A stretch of 64,000 bases of DNA from the NCBI RefSeq assembly GCF_018613195.1, contig NZ_JAGGQQ010000010.1, positions 62,001 to 126,000 of the forward strand. Direction: 5' to 3'. Shown one piece after another: positions 37,874 through 44,385 of this stretch (position 1 is the stretch's first letter; each line of letters starts with the position of its first letter). A model generated the notes under the pieces. It was not told the DNA's origin. It saw nothing but the letters and a program-made list of their open reading frames with translations, and ran no database searches. The translations under genes and the position numbers were made by a program. The stretch comes from Bacillus sp. ISL-45. Lineage in GTDB: Bacteria > Bacillota > Bacilli > Bacillales > Cytobacillaceae.

Positions 37874-37897
37874 AAAGCACCTGAAAATAGGTGCTTT
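37874..37897 (-). terminator. Terminator of cueP
   Basis: AAAGCACCT-ATTTTC-AGGTGCTTT followed by TTTT on the minus strand. Confidence 0.92.
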
Positions 37898-37900
37898 AGT

Positions 37901-38431
37901 CTACATAAGCTGCATTGTGGTAATGCAAGTGGCGTCATTCTGAAAAGTGGATATTTCTGATTCAACCGTTTTGCCGTTATATCCAATCTTTGTATTGAAC
38001 TTTTTATCACGCGGGAGCCACAAATCGATGAAACCATTCTGATGGGACGTCATTTTCTCATCAACGACCACGTTACCGTCTTCATCCTCAATATATACAT
38101 CAAACTCTTTTTCTGCCAGTTCACCTTGACAACCTGTCAAGCTATGATTCGCTCAAGGATGGGTTTGATTTTCGTAAGGCGCGATTGAGACGAAGAAGTC
38201 TTCGTCTGATATGTCATAGACTTGCTTGTCCCCTTCACTGTCATCAATTGTCACTTCTTGTGAGGTGATGGAAGCTTTATGGCCCTTAATTTCGCCCGTG
38301 CTGTAATCACTCACCAATTCCTTGATGTTCTCTTGTTGTTTTTCAGGTTGAGCAGATTTTTCTTCTTCACCACTACAGCCAGTTAATATACCGGCAGCCA
38401 AAAACGCAATTCCGAGGAGTTTAAACTTCAA
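37901..38431 (-). CDS. cueP: CueP copper-binding lipoprotein with in-frame UGA (candidate selenoprotein)
   Basis: Read through one TGA (38153-38155) this is a 176-residue CueP-family protein. Residues 1-19 are a lipoprotein signal with lipobox ILTGC. The sequence around the TGA is VSIAPYENQTHP-[UGA]-ANHSLTGCQGE, then FIDLWLPRDKKF and TFQNDATCITTMQL. The family carries Cys-x7-Cys and a third Cys 68 residues further; from memory Salmonella CueP uses Cys96, Cys104 and Cys172. Here UGA93, Cys101 and Cys169 reproduce exactly that spacing, so UGA replaces the first metal-binding Cys. No frameshift is needed and no other stop occurs. The codons after UGA form a SECIS-like hairpin. TTG start 38431 follows AAGGGGGTGA. 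The alternative is a TGC-to-TGA nonsense mutation. Confidence 0.75.
38114..38155 (-). promoter_or_regulatory. SECIS-like hairpin directly after the cueP UGA
   Basis: Minus strand: UGA, 11 nt (GCGAAUCAUAG), then CUUGACA-GGU-UGUCAAG, a perfect 7-bp stem with loop GGU (38127-38143). The loop begins 18 nt after the UGA. As I recall, E. coli fdhF has the same 18-nt distance and an AGGUCU apical loop. Confidence 0.7.
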
Positions 38432-38495
38432 CCCATTCACCCCCTTGTCTTTCAAAAATGATTATATCATAAACTCACAGTCCTATATTAGAAGT

Positions 38496-38533
38496 AAAAT
38501 ATGCATTTTCTATCGAGAAAAAATGCATATTTT
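38496..38533. promoter_or_regulatory. AT-rich inverted repeat upstream of cueP
   Basis: AAAATATGCATTTT, 10-nt spacer, AAAATGCATATTTT; a 14-bp perfect inverted repeat 65-100 bp upstream of the cueP start. Candidate operator for a metal-responsive repressor, identity unknown. Confidence 0.5.
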
Positions 38534-40260: not shown

Positions 40261-41694
40261 CTATTTTTTTGGAGCTGGCTGTTGTGCCGGGAAGTAACTG
40301 TTCACTGCTTTCTCTTTCTTCTTGAAGTTATCTTTTTCGTCGAAAACAGCCTTCTTCACTTTTTCAATCTCTTCTTTGACCTCTTCCAGATTTACACCCT
40401 TCTTGATCAACTCTTCGATGGCAAGATTGATTGCCTCATTCGATTCTTCTATCGATACTCTCAGTGAATCCATTGCTCCCTGCGGATTATGGAATCCTGC
40501 AGCACTTTCAGCTGCAACAATATCCCAGAACCATTGACCTTTCCTGATATGCTCCTGAGCCTGCTTGATTTTCTCCTCGCTTACTCCAGAAGTGATCATC
40601 TTATTCACGTAATAGTGTGAGGTGATCGAAATATCCTCAGCTTTATGAAGTGCTTCCATATGTTTATCCTGGATACCGATTACTCGGTCCTTCAGCTCAT
40701 CCATATCCCTGTTGGTATGGCAGGTTGCACATGACTGATCCATTGTCTTAAGCGGTGATGTCCACCAGTGTGAGCTGATTTTCTTTTTGCCGTCAACCCT
40801 GTCATATGGCATGTGGCAGTCTGAACATGTAACCCCTGCTTCACCATGCGGACCTTCGATATGAGTCTCAAAGTCAGGGTGCTGCGCTTTTAGCATTGGC
40901 GTTCCTGAGACATTGTGGACCCAGTCCTTCTCAAAACCTTGCTCCTTAGCAGTAGTTTCGTAGTATTCGTACATATCTTCCGGCTCAAAGCCGTTTGCCC
41001 AAGGGTAAGTTACTTCTCCATTGTCTGCGGCAAAATAGTACTCTACGTGGCACTGTCCGCAAACATAGTTTCTCATGTCATTCTTCGTTGGGTTGGACAT
41101 GTCGATTCCCTGTGACTCCATTGCCTTAATGAAGCTAGGACGTGTTACGCGCAAATCCATTGTCTGCGGGTCATGGCAGTCCGAGCAGCCGATCGGTGAA
41201 TGGCCCATTGCTTCTGCCTTTGGCCAAATGTCTTCGTTAAAATTGCCGCCCCAGTAATCGTCGCCCATTTCCTCAATCATGTGAGGAACAGCAGTCGACT
41301 TACAGGTTAAGCATGATCCGATTGATTTGTCAGTGATACGCGCAATCGCCCGAACATCCTCATTTGCATAGATATGGCCGCGGTCCTCATTATACTCAGT
41401 CGCAAAGCCATAGCCGTTAAAAAGGACTGGCAGATAAGGTTCCTTATCATGGTCGAACTTGCTTCGTTTGACGGAACCGCTGTACTTCGTATCCTCCATT
41501 TTTTCATTTTGCTTGTAGCTGTCATATTGCAGCGGGAAAAGGTCCTTGAAGGCCTCATTGCTGATTTCGTCTTTGCTCAGCCCCGTTTTCAGCTCGCTTG
41601 CGGAAGTTGCTTCTTCTTCCGAGCTGGAGCAGCCTGTTATGATGAGCATGACAGCCGCAAGGAGCAAAAATGCCCAGCGGAAATTTCTAGCCAT
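40261..41694 (-). CDS. nrfA: Ammonia-forming cytochrome c nitrite reductase NrfA
   Basis: 477 residues with five heme motifs: the active-site CLTCK (about residue 127, the CxxCK type unique to NrfA) and four CxxCH (CSDCH about 171, CGQCH 213, CSDCH 291, CATCH 323). It reduces nitrite to ammonium by six electrons. Residues 1-22 are a lipoprotein signal with lipobox IITGC, so the enzyme should be lipid-anchored outside the cell, as expected without an outer membrane. It overlaps the nrfH stop by 8 bp. The C-terminal tail is lysine-rich. Confidence 0.96.
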   Translation of the reverse strand: MARNFRWAFLLLAAVMLIITGCSSSEEEATSASELKTGLSKDEISNEAFKDLFPLQYDSYKQNEKMEDTKYSGSVKRSKFDHDKEPYLPVLFNGYGFATEYNEDRGHIYANEDVRAIARITDKSIGSCLTCKSTAVPHMIEEMGDDYWGGNFNEDIWPKAEAMGHSPIGCSDCHDPQTMDLRVTRPSFIKAMESQGIDMSNPTKNDMRNYVCGQCHVEYYFAADNGEVTYPWANGFEPEDMYEYYETTAKEQGFEKDWVHNVSGTPMLKAQHPDFETHIEGPHGEAGVTCSDCHMPYDRVDGKKKISSHWWTSPLKTMDQSCATCHTNRDMDELKDRVIGIQDKHMEALHKAEDISITSHYYVNKMITSGVSEEKIKQAQEHIRKGQWFWDIVAAESAAGFHNPQGAMDSLRVSIEESNEAINLAIEELIKKGVNLEEVKEEIEKVKKAVFDEKDNFKKKEKAVNSYFPAQQPAPKK

Positions 41695-42220
41695 TGTTCA
41701 TCGTACCTCCTTTATTTTCTAAAAGCTCGCCTGGTTTCGGCGGTTTAAAATAATCCTCTGTTTTGAAGCCTTTGCCGTGCGGCACTGCCTGGTGGCAGCT
41801 TGAACAGCTGTCTTTCGCATCATGTGAAACGTTGTCCAGTGTATTCTCATGGCAACTGATGCAGTTCTCATTTATGACTTCTTCAGAACCTTCCGTTGCA
41901 TGCAGTACCTTCGGGATTTTTGCCTCGCCCAGTGTATTGAAATACACATGCGTCATCCCGGCCTTTGCCTTATAGGTGTATTTATTAACCATACTATCGT
42001 GCGGTAAATGGCAGTCGCCGCAGGACAGACCGGCGTGGTTGGAATCAGAGAACGAGTCATGGACCTCTGTCATGATATGGCAGCTCGAGCAAAATTCAGG
42101 TGAATCCGTATAAGCAAGCGTTTTGACAGTGACGACAGAAACAATGATTCCAGCAAATACGCCAATGAATAACAGCATCTTTTTGTCTATTCCCAGTAGC
42201 TTTTTCAGCATCTTTTTCAC
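41687..42220 (-). CDS. nrfH: NrfH, tetraheme quinol dehydrogenase of the nitrite reductase
   Basis: 177 residues of the NapC/NirT family: one N-terminal membrane anchor (residues 15-36) and four heme motifs, CSSCH (44-48, followed by I-M50, the Met-ligated heme 1 typical of NrfH), CGDCH, CISCH and CSSCH. It takes electrons from menaquinol and feeds NrfA. AAGGGAGGTG precedes the ATG. It overlaps nrfA, so the pair is translationally coupled. Confidence 0.95.
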   Translation of the reverse strand: MKKMLKKLLGIDKKMLLFIGVFAGIIVSVVTVKTLAYTDSPEFCSSCHIMTEVHDSFSDSNHAGLSCGDCHLPHDSMVNKYTYKAKAGMTHVYFNTLGEAKIPKVLHATEGSEEVINENCISCHENTLDNVSHDAKDSCSSCHQAVPHGKGFKTEDYFKPPKPGELLENKGGTMNNG

Positions 42221-42251
42221 CTCCCTTAAAGCGGATTCTTGCTATCTACTA

Positions 42252-42288
42252 AAAGCTGTATTCGCATGGTTCAACCGAAAACAGCTTT
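42252..42288 (-). promoter_or_regulatory. Hairpin between the thioredoxin gene and nrfH
   Basis: Minus strand AAAGCTGT-T-TTCG, 11-nt loop, CGAA-T-ACAGCTTT, not followed by a T run. It could be an RNA processing or stability element that sets nrfHA levels apart from the ccm genes. Confidence 0.5.
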
Positions 42289-42317
42289 ATTAAAACACGG
42301 ATGTGCTTTAACCAAGG

Positions 42318-42824
42318 TTATGGTGAAACTTTTTCCTGGATCATTTTGATTAAATCGTCTTTCGTTGTCGGGCCGGAGAAACGTTCAACAATGACGCCGT
42401 TTCCGTCGATGATGATGGTTTCAGGCTGGCCGATGACATTGTAATCCTTTGATATGTCTTCTTTTGTGTCTAAAAGATACGTAAGCTCAGAGCCGCTTTT
42501 CGAGATGTATTTTTCCATCCGTTTCTTCGATTCGCCTTTAGCAAGGATCAGCAGCTTTGCATCCTTATACTCTTTGCCGAACGCTTCCAGTTCAGGAGCT
42601 TCGTCAATGCACGGTGCGCACCAGGTTGCGAAAAAGTTAAGGACCACTGGCTGGCCTTTAAAATCCGATAATTTATAAGTGTTGCCTTCGATATCCTGCA
42701 GCTCAAACTCGATGGACTGGTCTCCAGGCTGGGCCGATGCTTTCCCTCCCAGTCCGCTGACCAAAAAGCCGAGAACTCCGATGACGGCAGCGATGACAAT
42801 GACCGGAACTATCTTTTTGCCCAT
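42318..42824 (-). CDS. TlpA/ResA-type thiol-disulfide oxidoreductase (CcmG role)
   Basis: 168 residues. An N-terminal membrane anchor (residues 4-30) is followed by an AhpC/TlpA-type thioredoxin domain with WCAPC (Cys69, Cys72) and the cis-Pro segment VIGQPETIIID. ResA and CcmG use this fold to reduce apocytochrome CxxCH cysteines before heme attachment. Position between ccmD and nrfH supports that role. I start at ATG 42824 (MGKKIVP); a GTG at 42833 is possible. Confidence 0.88.
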   Translation of the reverse strand: MGKKIVPVIVIAAVIGVLGFLVSGLGGKASAQPGDQSIEFELQDIEGNTYKLSDFKGQPVVLNFFATWCAPCIDEAPELEAFGKEYKDAKLLILAKGESKKRMEKYISKSGSELTYLLDTKEDISKDYNVIGQPETIIIDGNGVIVERFSGPTTKDDLIKMIQEKVSP

Positions 42825-42839
42825 TATATTCACCCGCTT

Positions 42840-42971
42840 TTAAAAATCTGAGTTCCATTCTTCAAGTAGTTCGAGCTCTTTCTTCAGCTGCTTCTGGCGG
42901 CGCCCAAGCACTAATACATAACCAGCGATCAACGTCCAAATAACTGAGTAAGCCATGAATAAGTAAGTCAT
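42840..42971 (-). CDS. ccmD: CcmD-like small membrane protein
   Basis: 43 residues (MTYLFMAYSVIWTLIAGYVL ... ELLEEWNSDF): one membrane segment followed by a charged tail with GRRQKQLKKELE, the normal make-up of CcmD. AAGGAGGAG lies 7 nt before the ATG. It is located right after ccmC, where CcmD normally sits. CcmD helps release holo-CcmE from the CcmABC complex. Confidence 0.8.
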   Translation of the reverse strand: MTYLFMAYSVIWTLIAGYVLVLGRRQKQLKKELELLEEWNSDF

Positions 42972-42991
42972 TTTAAACTCCTCCTTAGTGA

Positions 42992-43705
42992 TTATCCTGC
43001 AAGCTTTTCAATTGCTTTTGACTTTGCCTTTTTGACGATATGCCGCATTTTTTCAATTTCGATTCCTTTGCGCATCAAGAACGCGTAAAGCACGGTAATC
43101 GTAAAGATCGAGAATAGCAGTGCGACCAGCATATCTGGTTCGATTCCGCCGCCCGACTGGTTTTTGCCTTCACCGAAGACAACTGGATGAAGCTTCGTGT
43201 TCCACCAGCGGATGGCCATGAAGACGATCGGGACATTGATGACGCCAATAATGCCAAAAACAGCTGACAGCCTTGCGATTTTGTCCATCGACCCATCCAT
43301 CTTGCGGACGAACAGATAAGCAACATAGATGAACCATAGAATAAGGGTTGTCGCGAGGCGCGGCTCCCATGTCCACCATGTATTCCAGCTTGATTTTCCC
43401 CAGATCATCCCGGTGATCAGTGTGATTGTTGTAAAAAGAACGCCAATTTCTGCGGAGATTCCCGCATTGATATGATGCTGGAGTCTCGGCTTGATCAGCA
43501 CTCTCACGCTGTAATAACCCACGACACCGAATGCGAGGAAGGCGACCCAGGCACTGCCAACATGGAAGTAGAATATTTTTTGTGCAGCGCCCATCACCTT
43601 TTCAACCGGAGACCAAATAAAAATAAGATATAGTGCTATGAAAAATGATGGAATTAACGTGAATAGCAACAACCGGTCGATAATGCCAGTATTCTTTCTC
43701 ATCAT
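42992..43705 (-). CDS. ccmC: Heme exporter / heme-handling protein CcmC
   Basis: 237 residues, six membrane segments, and the tryptophan-rich heme-handling motif as WGKSSWNTWWTWEPRLAT (about residues 105-122), with conserved His residues in FYFHVGSAW and LHPVVFGEG. CcmC loads heme on CcmE. ATG 43705 follows GGAGGGG and overlaps the ccmB stop (ATGA). System I cytochrome c maturation is unusual in Bacillaceae, which normally use ResBC (System II). Confidence 0.92.
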   Translation of the reverse strand: MMRKNTGIIDRLLLFTLIPSFFIALYLIFIWSPVEKVMGAAQKIFYFHVGSAWVAFLAFGVVGYYSVRVLIKPRLQHHINAGISAEIGVLFTTITLITGMIWGKSSWNTWWTWEPRLATTLILWFIYVAYLFVRKMDGSMDKIARLSAVFGIIGVINVPIVFMAIRWWNTKLHPVVFGEGKNQSGGGIEPDMLVALLFSIFTITVLYAFLMRKGIEIEKMRHIVKKAKSKAIEKLAG

Positions 43706-44385
43706 GACCCCTCCATAATAAATTCGAATAAGAAAAAGCATGCAGCCAGGAACAATAAATCGTAAGCAGCCATCAATCTGATCCAGGAAGATGCATCCGC
43801 AATCATTTCATTTTCAAGAATGATTCTTGTCGCCTGGACCCCGGCGATCAGCAGCGGGCTTAGAAGCGGCAGCAGCAACACCGGCAAAAGCATCTCGCTG
43901 TTCTTTGCGTTCGCCGATAGCGCAGCCAGGAAGGTCCCGACTATGATGAAACCGAGCGTACCAATGATGACCACAAGGATGAACCAGCTTACTTTTCCAA
44001 AAAAGCGATAGTCGAACAGCAGAAACAAAACAGGGATGCTGACAAGCTGTACTGCCGTTACGAGGATGAAGTTCGCCAGCACCTTGCCAAGATAGATGCT
44101 CGAAGGATCGATTGGTGCCGAACGCAAACCTGTCAGTGCATCGTTTTCGTGCTCAGAAAGAAAGGAACGATTTAGTCCCAGAATTCCGGAAAACACGGTG
44201 ATCAGCCAGACAAGCCCTGGAATGACCGCTTTGACCATATTATTTGTCGGATCGAACGCAAAGCTGAAGATCAGGACGACGAGACTCGAGAAAATGACCA
44301 TCATCCCGATTGTCTGCTTAGTTTTGATCTCATTGCTCAGGTCTTTGCTGGCAATAGTCCACGCATCTTTAAGGATTGAAATCAT
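43702..44385 (-). CDS. ccmB: Heme exporter membrane protein CcmB
   Basis: 227 residues with six hydrophobic segments; matches CcmB in size, topology and motifs (EHENDALTGLRSAPIDPSSIYLGK; LLLPLLSPLLIAGVQATR). It forms the ABC-type complex with CcmA that releases holo-CcmE. Both ends overlap neighbours by 4 bp (ATGA with ccmA and ccmC). Confidence 0.92.
   Translation of the reverse strand: MISILKDAWTIASKDLSNEIKTKQTIGMMVIFSSLVVLIFSFAFDPTNNMVKAVIPGLVWLITVFSGILGLNRSFLSEHENDALTGLRSAPIDPSSIYLGKVLANFILVTAVQLVSIPVLFLLFDYRFFGKVSWFILVVIIGTLGFIIVGTFLAALSANAKNSEMLLPVLLLPLLSPLLIAGVQATRIILENEMIADASSWIRLMAAYDLLFLAACFFLFEFIMEGS

Follow-up and report, generated by a model that had tools for sequence, protein, structure and literature searches.

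CueP of Salmonella is a periplasmic copper protein which, in the accessible text of PMC13201067 and PMC7558416, is tied to copper tolerance and to the metalation of SodC; the accessible text of PMC13201067 also states that the exchange C104S abolishes its effect. For the hairpins that direct selenocysteine (Sec) insertion in bacteria (bSECIS), the accessible text of a 2026 review (PMC13188914) gives as limits an apical loop of 3-9 nt, an upper stem of 4-16 bp, a G within the first two loop positions, a UGA-to-loop distance of 16-37 nt and an MFE of at most -7.5 kcal/mol. Table 1 of this review also lists predicted Sec proteins of the CopZ-family 2Fe-2S type (cd10141), the SO_0444 Cu/Zn efflux transporter (NF033936), MbdU (NF045648) and an E1-E2 ATPase (TIGR01525). 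In the window analysed here, a stretch of 64,000 nucleotides from Bacillus sp. ISL-45, the frame of a cueP gene is interrupted by an in-frame UGA; this observation was confirmed (Table 1). The original prediction had taken the gene for a candidate selenoprotein gene, a reading that is strongly supported by comparative sequence evidence.

As had been predicted, the two half-frames share the same phase and are separated by the TGA codon only. Reading through this codon yields a complete CueP-like lipoprotein, with family-model matches that extend across the UGA. Counted from the TTG codon at 38431, Sec would be residue 93; counted from the TTG at 38455, as in the protein P0001 used for numbering below, it would be residue 101. 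By eye, a Shine-Dalgarno-like AAGGGGG was seen upstream of TTG 38431, and the N-terminus, LAAGILTGC, looked lipoprotein-like. The Sec position presumably corresponds to Cys96, the first Cys of the metal site, in the numbering of Salmonella CueP, and we take C109 and C177 of P0001 to be its Cys104 and Cys172. When the window was checked for chance occurrence, four TGA codons were found that were flanked on each side by 20 or more open codons and had a hairpin of at least 6 bp in range; among these four the cueP codon alone had long frames on both sides (102 + 83 codons).

Table 1. Features at and around the cueP gene (positions in the window)
Feature	Position	Strand	Remarks
cueP coding sequence, read via UGA	37901..38431	-	TTG start 38431, TAG stop 37903-37901; CueP-family lipoprotein
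In-frame UGA in place of the first invariant Cys of CueP; proposed to encode Sec	38153..38155	-	
Lipobox-like Cys (LTGC), predicted lipid-modified N-terminus of mature protein	38375..38377	-	assigned by eye; predicted
His codon, H104 of P0001, in THPUxxH	38144..38146	-	invariant in alignment A1
Second conserved Cys, C109 of P0001	38129..38131	-	codon within SECIS stem
Third conserved Cys, C177 of P0001	37925..37927	-	
bSECIS core, 7-bp stem CUUGACA/UGUCAAG	38125..38141	-	GGU loop 38134-38132
Rho-independent-terminator-like hairpin 3' of cueP	37874..37897	-	1 found, shuffle mean 0.8
Inverted repeat AAAATATGCATTTT-N10-AAAATGCATATTTT upstream of cueP	38496..38533	.	14-bp arms

The read-through product matched the CueP model PF21172 with 150.1 bits (E 4e-44, cut-off 27) and NF038094 with 184.9 bits (E 6e-55, cut-off 60), and the half-products matched neighbouring segments of PF21172 (profile positions 14-56 and 59-138). 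Against the stricter, exception-level model NF038095 (copper-binding periplasmic metallochaperone CueP) the product scored 152 bits, below the cut-off of 195; it is a member of the CueP family that falls below the model for the enterobacterial type. In the alignment to the solved CueP structure 4gqz (E 6e-33), the UGA was found opposite the Cys of THPCFNHSL. The spacing of 8 and 76 residues between the UGA and the two following Cys residues equals the Cys spacing in 4gqz, which places the UGA at the first conserved Cys, as the original prediction had held. H99, H104, C109 and C177 were invariant in the 14 rows of alignment A1, and position 101 was either Cys or UGA.

The perfect 7-bp stem predicted to close a GGU loop was found, with the first loop G 19 nt past the UGA. 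The GGU of E. coli fdhF is likewise located at codon 7 after its UGA (nt 19-21), i.e. in the same register as in cueP, just as the original prediction had stated; the 48-nt segment used for this check was 100% identical to annotated fdhF among the matches listed. The two genes differ in sequence context and in product, fdhF encoding formate dehydrogenase and cueP a small metal-binding lipoprotein. The 28-nt hairpin folded at -8.1 kcal/mol (z -2.7), a value equalled or bettered by 2 of 200 shuffles, and the 41-nt stretch starting at the UGA was weakly unusual (-9.8, z -1.2, 23 of 200 shuffles). With a 3-nt loop starting with GG, 7 bp, a distance of 18 nt from the UGA and -8.1 kcal/mol, the hairpin falls within the bSECIS limits given in the accessible text of PMC13188914. 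The minimum-energy fold also had a longer lower stem (UCAU with GUGA), which was dropped for lack of conservation, column 39 of alignment A2 being variable. An Rfam search of the region yielded nothing near the gathering score, and the fold of L028 1501-1600 was left out, as the site was not covered.

Sequence contexts of the codon were compared among relatives after removal of 12 identical rows from 131, leaving 119 distinct contexts (60 UGA, 59 Cys). The 7-bp stem (G-U allowed) with a GGU loop was present in 60 of 60 UGA contexts versus 2 of 59 Cys contexts (Fisher 4e-32, kinship ignored); one further Cys context showed the stem, with GGG as its loop. The arms in UGA genes were CTTGACA/TGTCAAG (48), CCTGACA/TGTCAGG (10), TTTGGCA/TGCCAAG (1) and TCTGACA/TGTCAGG (1). 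Across 52 distinct rows of A2, 100% of stem cells were paired, a level reached by none of 500 shuffles, and double-sided changes at two stem pairs accounted for 11 cells, likewise in none of 500 shuffles: U-A was replaced by C-G in 10 of the 52 rows and A-U by G-C in 1 of 52. The count of pairs changed on both sides was reached by 6 of 500 shuffles, and further pair types showed no excess (3 versus a shuffle mean of 3.9). Sliding the stem by +1 gave a covariation score of 0.101 versus 0.112 in the true register, but left just 42.6% of cells paired. The same stem laid on the 59 Cys rows paired in 68.5% of cells, which is the shuffle level. In UGA genes, the five stem-loop codons had a mean synonymous entropy of 0.30 bits, and the 49 other conserved codons one of 1.29 (p 5e-4); the corresponding values in Cys genes were 1.45 and 1.38 (42 other codons, p 0.70). 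The residues encoded by the stem-loop are largely alike in UGA and Cys genes, indicating that the hairpin is not imposed by the protein sequence. In UGA genes compensatory changes have preserved it, and in Cys genes it is not conserved.

Of 61 genomes, comprising the own genome and 60 relatives, 34 showed CueP matches; two of these matches (G042, G032) were weak and partial and were not counted as CueP, and the remaining 32 genomes comprised 28 with UGA and 4 with Cys. All 21 same-genus genomes (G000-G020) carried the UGA, the close relatives having retained it and not TGC or TGT. The 23 loci of named relatives were divided into 11 UGA and 12 Cys loci, UGA carriers including Mesobacillus selenatarsenatis, M. 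boroniphilus, Litchfieldia salsa, Neobacillus kokaensis, Cytobacillus citreus and an Alkalihalobacillus macyae MAG, and Cys carriers including Cerasibacillus, Virgibacillus, Paenibacillus, Citrobacter and Vibrio. CueP was matched in 88 of 397 genomes sampled from the order; 42 of the 88 carried a UGA gene, and the other 46 had Cys alone. Among 398 genomes sampled from the phylum, 7 further ones had CueP, none of them with an internal stop. CueP was also found in 23 plasmid records at less than 60% identity; 19 of the 20 listed were annotated as CueP family and one as hypothetical. A record titled Chryseobacterium sp. ISL-80 (L050) contained a Mesobacillus-like cueP with 85% identity and is probably mislabelled.

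The following were left out of the counts: the degenerate L156 of G194, the frame-broken L166 of G237, fragment rows of G003, G165, G220, G237, G241 and G384, and, as repeats of genomes, L070-L072, L074-L079, L081, L082, L084, L085 and L089. L167, which lies at a contig end and is short of the full 120-nt context, was retained, and L020 is absent from the tree and the codon test. The read frame of G241 is cut by a contig end.

A frame interrupted by UGA might also be a pseudogene, i.e. an ordinary nonsense mutation in a decaying gene, or a sequencing error. Decay of cueP does happen: the second copy L156 (G194 C1:355476-356291) is degenerate, and in 3 of 56 UGA genomes (G003, identical with locus L054 of the named relatives; G165; and G384) the read frame is additionally broken, in G003 further on. 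The same UGA was, however, found in 60 distinct contexts spanning 21 genus codes of the order, most frames being otherwise open, and its presence in independent genomes answers the doubt about sequencing. Moreover, synonymous constraint on the hairpin was confined to UGA genes, and the decayed L156 has TAC at the Sec/Cys position and its TGA at another codon, that of the second Cys; its genome has neither SelB nor SelA. Decay or error, which has hardly any chance of being correct, is refuted by the conservation of the UGA.

The machinery for Sec insertion was searched in the own genome (4.6 Mb, 99.84% complete), and all four genes that the original prediction had named for such a search, selA, selB, selC and selD, were present. 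SelB scored 365.6 bits, over its cut-off, SelA 560.4 bits and SelD 394.9 bits, and tRNA-Sec scored 58.3 bits (gathering 47), with ARAGORN assigning the anticodon TCA. The SelD gene itself contains an in-frame TGA, which by itself makes SelD look like a selenoprotein of this organism; by eye, its context was read as KAGUGCKI (L100 1482-1600). At L039, the tRNA-Sec gene (1501-1597) is followed on the opposite strand by an ORF (1706-2920) that appeared integrase-like by eye, which suggests an element integrated at selC.

Occurrence of the UGA gene tracked that of SelB. In the order sample, SelB was found in 41 of 42 UGA genomes versus 16 of 46 Cys-only genomes (p 1.2e-10), and when both genome sets were pooled, SelB over the cut-off was found in 54 of 56 versus 16 of 47 (p 2.5e-12, kinship ignored). 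The two UGA genomes without SelB, G009 and G234, are drafts (66% complete and 480 contigs, respectively), and both have SelA over the cut-off. The predicted alternation of UGA and Cys at this position was found. Decoding of the UGA without selenium, by near-cognate Trp read-through, by a suppressor tRNA or as a reassigned codon, could draw on the general knowledge that UGA is the leakiest stop codon. It is contradicted by the finding that those of the 119 contexts without UGA have Cys and never Trp (Tyr in the excluded, decayed L156), by the association of UGA genes with SelB and by the fit of the hairpin to the bSECIS limits. Furthermore, of 51 long ORFs in the window that do not overlap one another, 12 terminate with TGA, so that UGA looks like a working stop. 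On these grounds reassignment and Trp read-through were rejected, and selenium-free decoding as a whole is considered extremely improbable.

A regulated stop was also considered, in which the main product would be a truncated lipoprotein and read-through a minor, selenium-dependent functional switch. Bacterial Sec-UGA codons are generally known to terminate in part under Se shortage. The truncated product would, however, be without the metal site, because H104, C109 and C177 all follow the UGA, and the half of the gene downstream of the UGA showed no visible decay in the alignment, in agreement with the original description of it as intact. This alternative is considered very unlikely, if slightly less so than the two preceding ones.

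Sec and Cys forms appear to have been exchanged within the family. A quick tree of 118 proteins, which was poorly resolved, required 14 state changes by parsimony, two of them forced by starred branches; a test of independent pairs yielded two pairs and had no power. The Cys gene L123 of G366 has a perfect hairpin with a GGU loop and is placed by starred branches together with C. citreus and N. kokaensis, whose cueP genes have UGA. G366 has no SelB match and a SelA-like hit of 54.5 of 267.9 bits, below the cut-off. A Cys gene with an intact hairpin among UGA genes is most simply explained by a change from Sec to Cys that left a fossil SECIS. The Cys-type cueP of an uncultured Bacillus MAG (L056) likewise has a perfect SECIS-like hairpin with a GGU loop, and the hairpins of both Cys-type genes are probably fossil SECIS elements. 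One genome (G068) contained one UGA and one Cys copy, and two (G064, G190) contained two UGA copies each.

In the window, cueP looks monocistronic. A consensus promoter scan yielded 2 sites versus 2.1 expected, both within cueP, i.e. nothing above chance. The core TTTCTCGAT of the inverted repeat upstream of the gene was found in 19 of 21 same-genus upstream regions, with a damaged left arm in L018, and was missing in L021 and L029; it was found in none of 15 other loci (130 nt upstream each). The 28-base core is unique in its own genome at up to 3 mismatches. The repeat is regarded as a candidate operator. Further upstream in the window (40261-43741), an NrfH/NrfA-like multiheme cytochrome pair, a ResA-like thioredoxin and a cytochrome c assembly-like gene were observed, all named from reading the ORFs. 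The UGA-type cueP of G097 has a SelO-family gene on its upstream side (L088 2202-3521; PF02696, 381.5 bits).

Neighbouring genes were scanned at 13 UGA loci, one or more per locus, and none of them exceeded the cut-off of a copper-specific family. The Cys locus L057 lies amid metal genes, with a Cu-ATPase over the TIGR01511 cut-off, AhpC/TSA-thioredoxin-like and DsbD-like proteins, a Csp1-like (copper-storage-like) protein below the cut-off and a multicopper-oxidase domain protein. A DsbD_2 gene precedes cueP at the UGA locus L061 and at the Cys locus L056, as does a two-component system; cueP of L092 is downstream of a histidine kinase. The neighbours (1-3 each) at the window locus and at L021, L022, L024, L025, L027, L029, L055, L073, L088 and L096 belonged to other families. 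Gene neighbourhood was rejected as proof of copper function, a metal-gene setting having been found at L057 only; a copper role of CueP in Bacillota is suggested by homology.

In each comparative test with deciding power, the gene behaves like a true selenoprotein gene. Conservation of the UGA, conservation of the SECIS with covariation, the presence of the machinery and co-distribution with SelB together support Sec-CueP, and its best reading, from comparative evidence, is that of a genuine selenoprotein family. Mesobacillus and many of its relatives almost certainly make CueP with selenocysteine at a key position of the metal site. A protein in which Sec is inserted via SelB and SECIS, and which is exported, lipid-anchored and equipped with a copper/redox site, is with great confidence the best explanation overall. 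The UGA at the first conserved Cys would be decoded in vivo by SelB:GTP:Sec-tRNA-Sec(UCA), the complex being recruited by the SECIS hairpin with its GGU loop 19-21 nt past the UGA. The product would then be exported and lipid-anchored outside the cell, where the selenol would share the metal/redox site with two invariant Cys and the invariant His residues. By homology with enterobacterial CueP, the protein may bind copper and either protect from copper and oxidants or hand copper on. Selenium might be of advantage through tighter binding of Cu(I) and/or faster reduction of Cu(II) or oxidants, as well as easier recovery from oxidation. An extracellular selenolate-Cu(I) site formed by Se with Cys/His, coupled to repeated Sec/Cys interchange with gain and loss of SelB and fossil SECIS elements, is possible and is put forward tentatively; perhaps Cu(II) would there be reduced through an Se-S bridge, in a natural selenium-copper lipoprotein.

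The original remark on the novelty of a selenolate as Cu(I) ligand had to be softened, since Sec predictions already exist for other proteins connected with copper or metals (PMC13188914); CueP, PF21172 and NF038094 are themselves absent from the 119 families/subfamilies in Table 1 of that review. The word CueP does not occur in the accessible text of the deep-Sep paper (PMC12013277), supplements aside, and PMC9312934, as far as its searchable text goes, is not among the papers pairing CueP with selenoprotein. A full-text literature search for CueP with selenoprotein or selenocysteine returned only a hydroxyapatite paper. Haft and Gwadz 2023 (J Bacteriol), Haft and Tolstoy 2025 (mSystems) and current RefSeq aside, priority for Sec-CueP is probable. 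Sec-CueP would be a widespread selenoprotein family that was not found catalogued, its UGA form occurring in 42 of the 88 CueP-bearing genomes of the order sample, and ordinary gene calling is expected to truncate this form. Since natural Sec and Cys variants exist of a small protein with a solved relative (4gqz), the benefit of selenium at a copper/thiol site should be measurable. The gene also documents how SECIS elements are gained and decay, with hairpins that probably persist as fossils where Sec has given way to Cys.

The CopZ-family, SO_0444, MbdU and E1-E2 ATPase proteins resemble Sec-CueP in the placement of a predicted Sec within a metal-handling protein, but belong to other families by accession, none being CueP. 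Salmonella CueP and 4gqz share with the window gene full-length homology, the motifs THPxxxHxxxGCxGE and TC, and the Cys spacing of 8 and 76. Unlike Salmonella CueP, the window gene has UGA, proposed to specify Sec, in place of the first Cys, encodes a Gram-positive lipoprotein with a lipobox-like motif and scores below the NF038095 cut-off.
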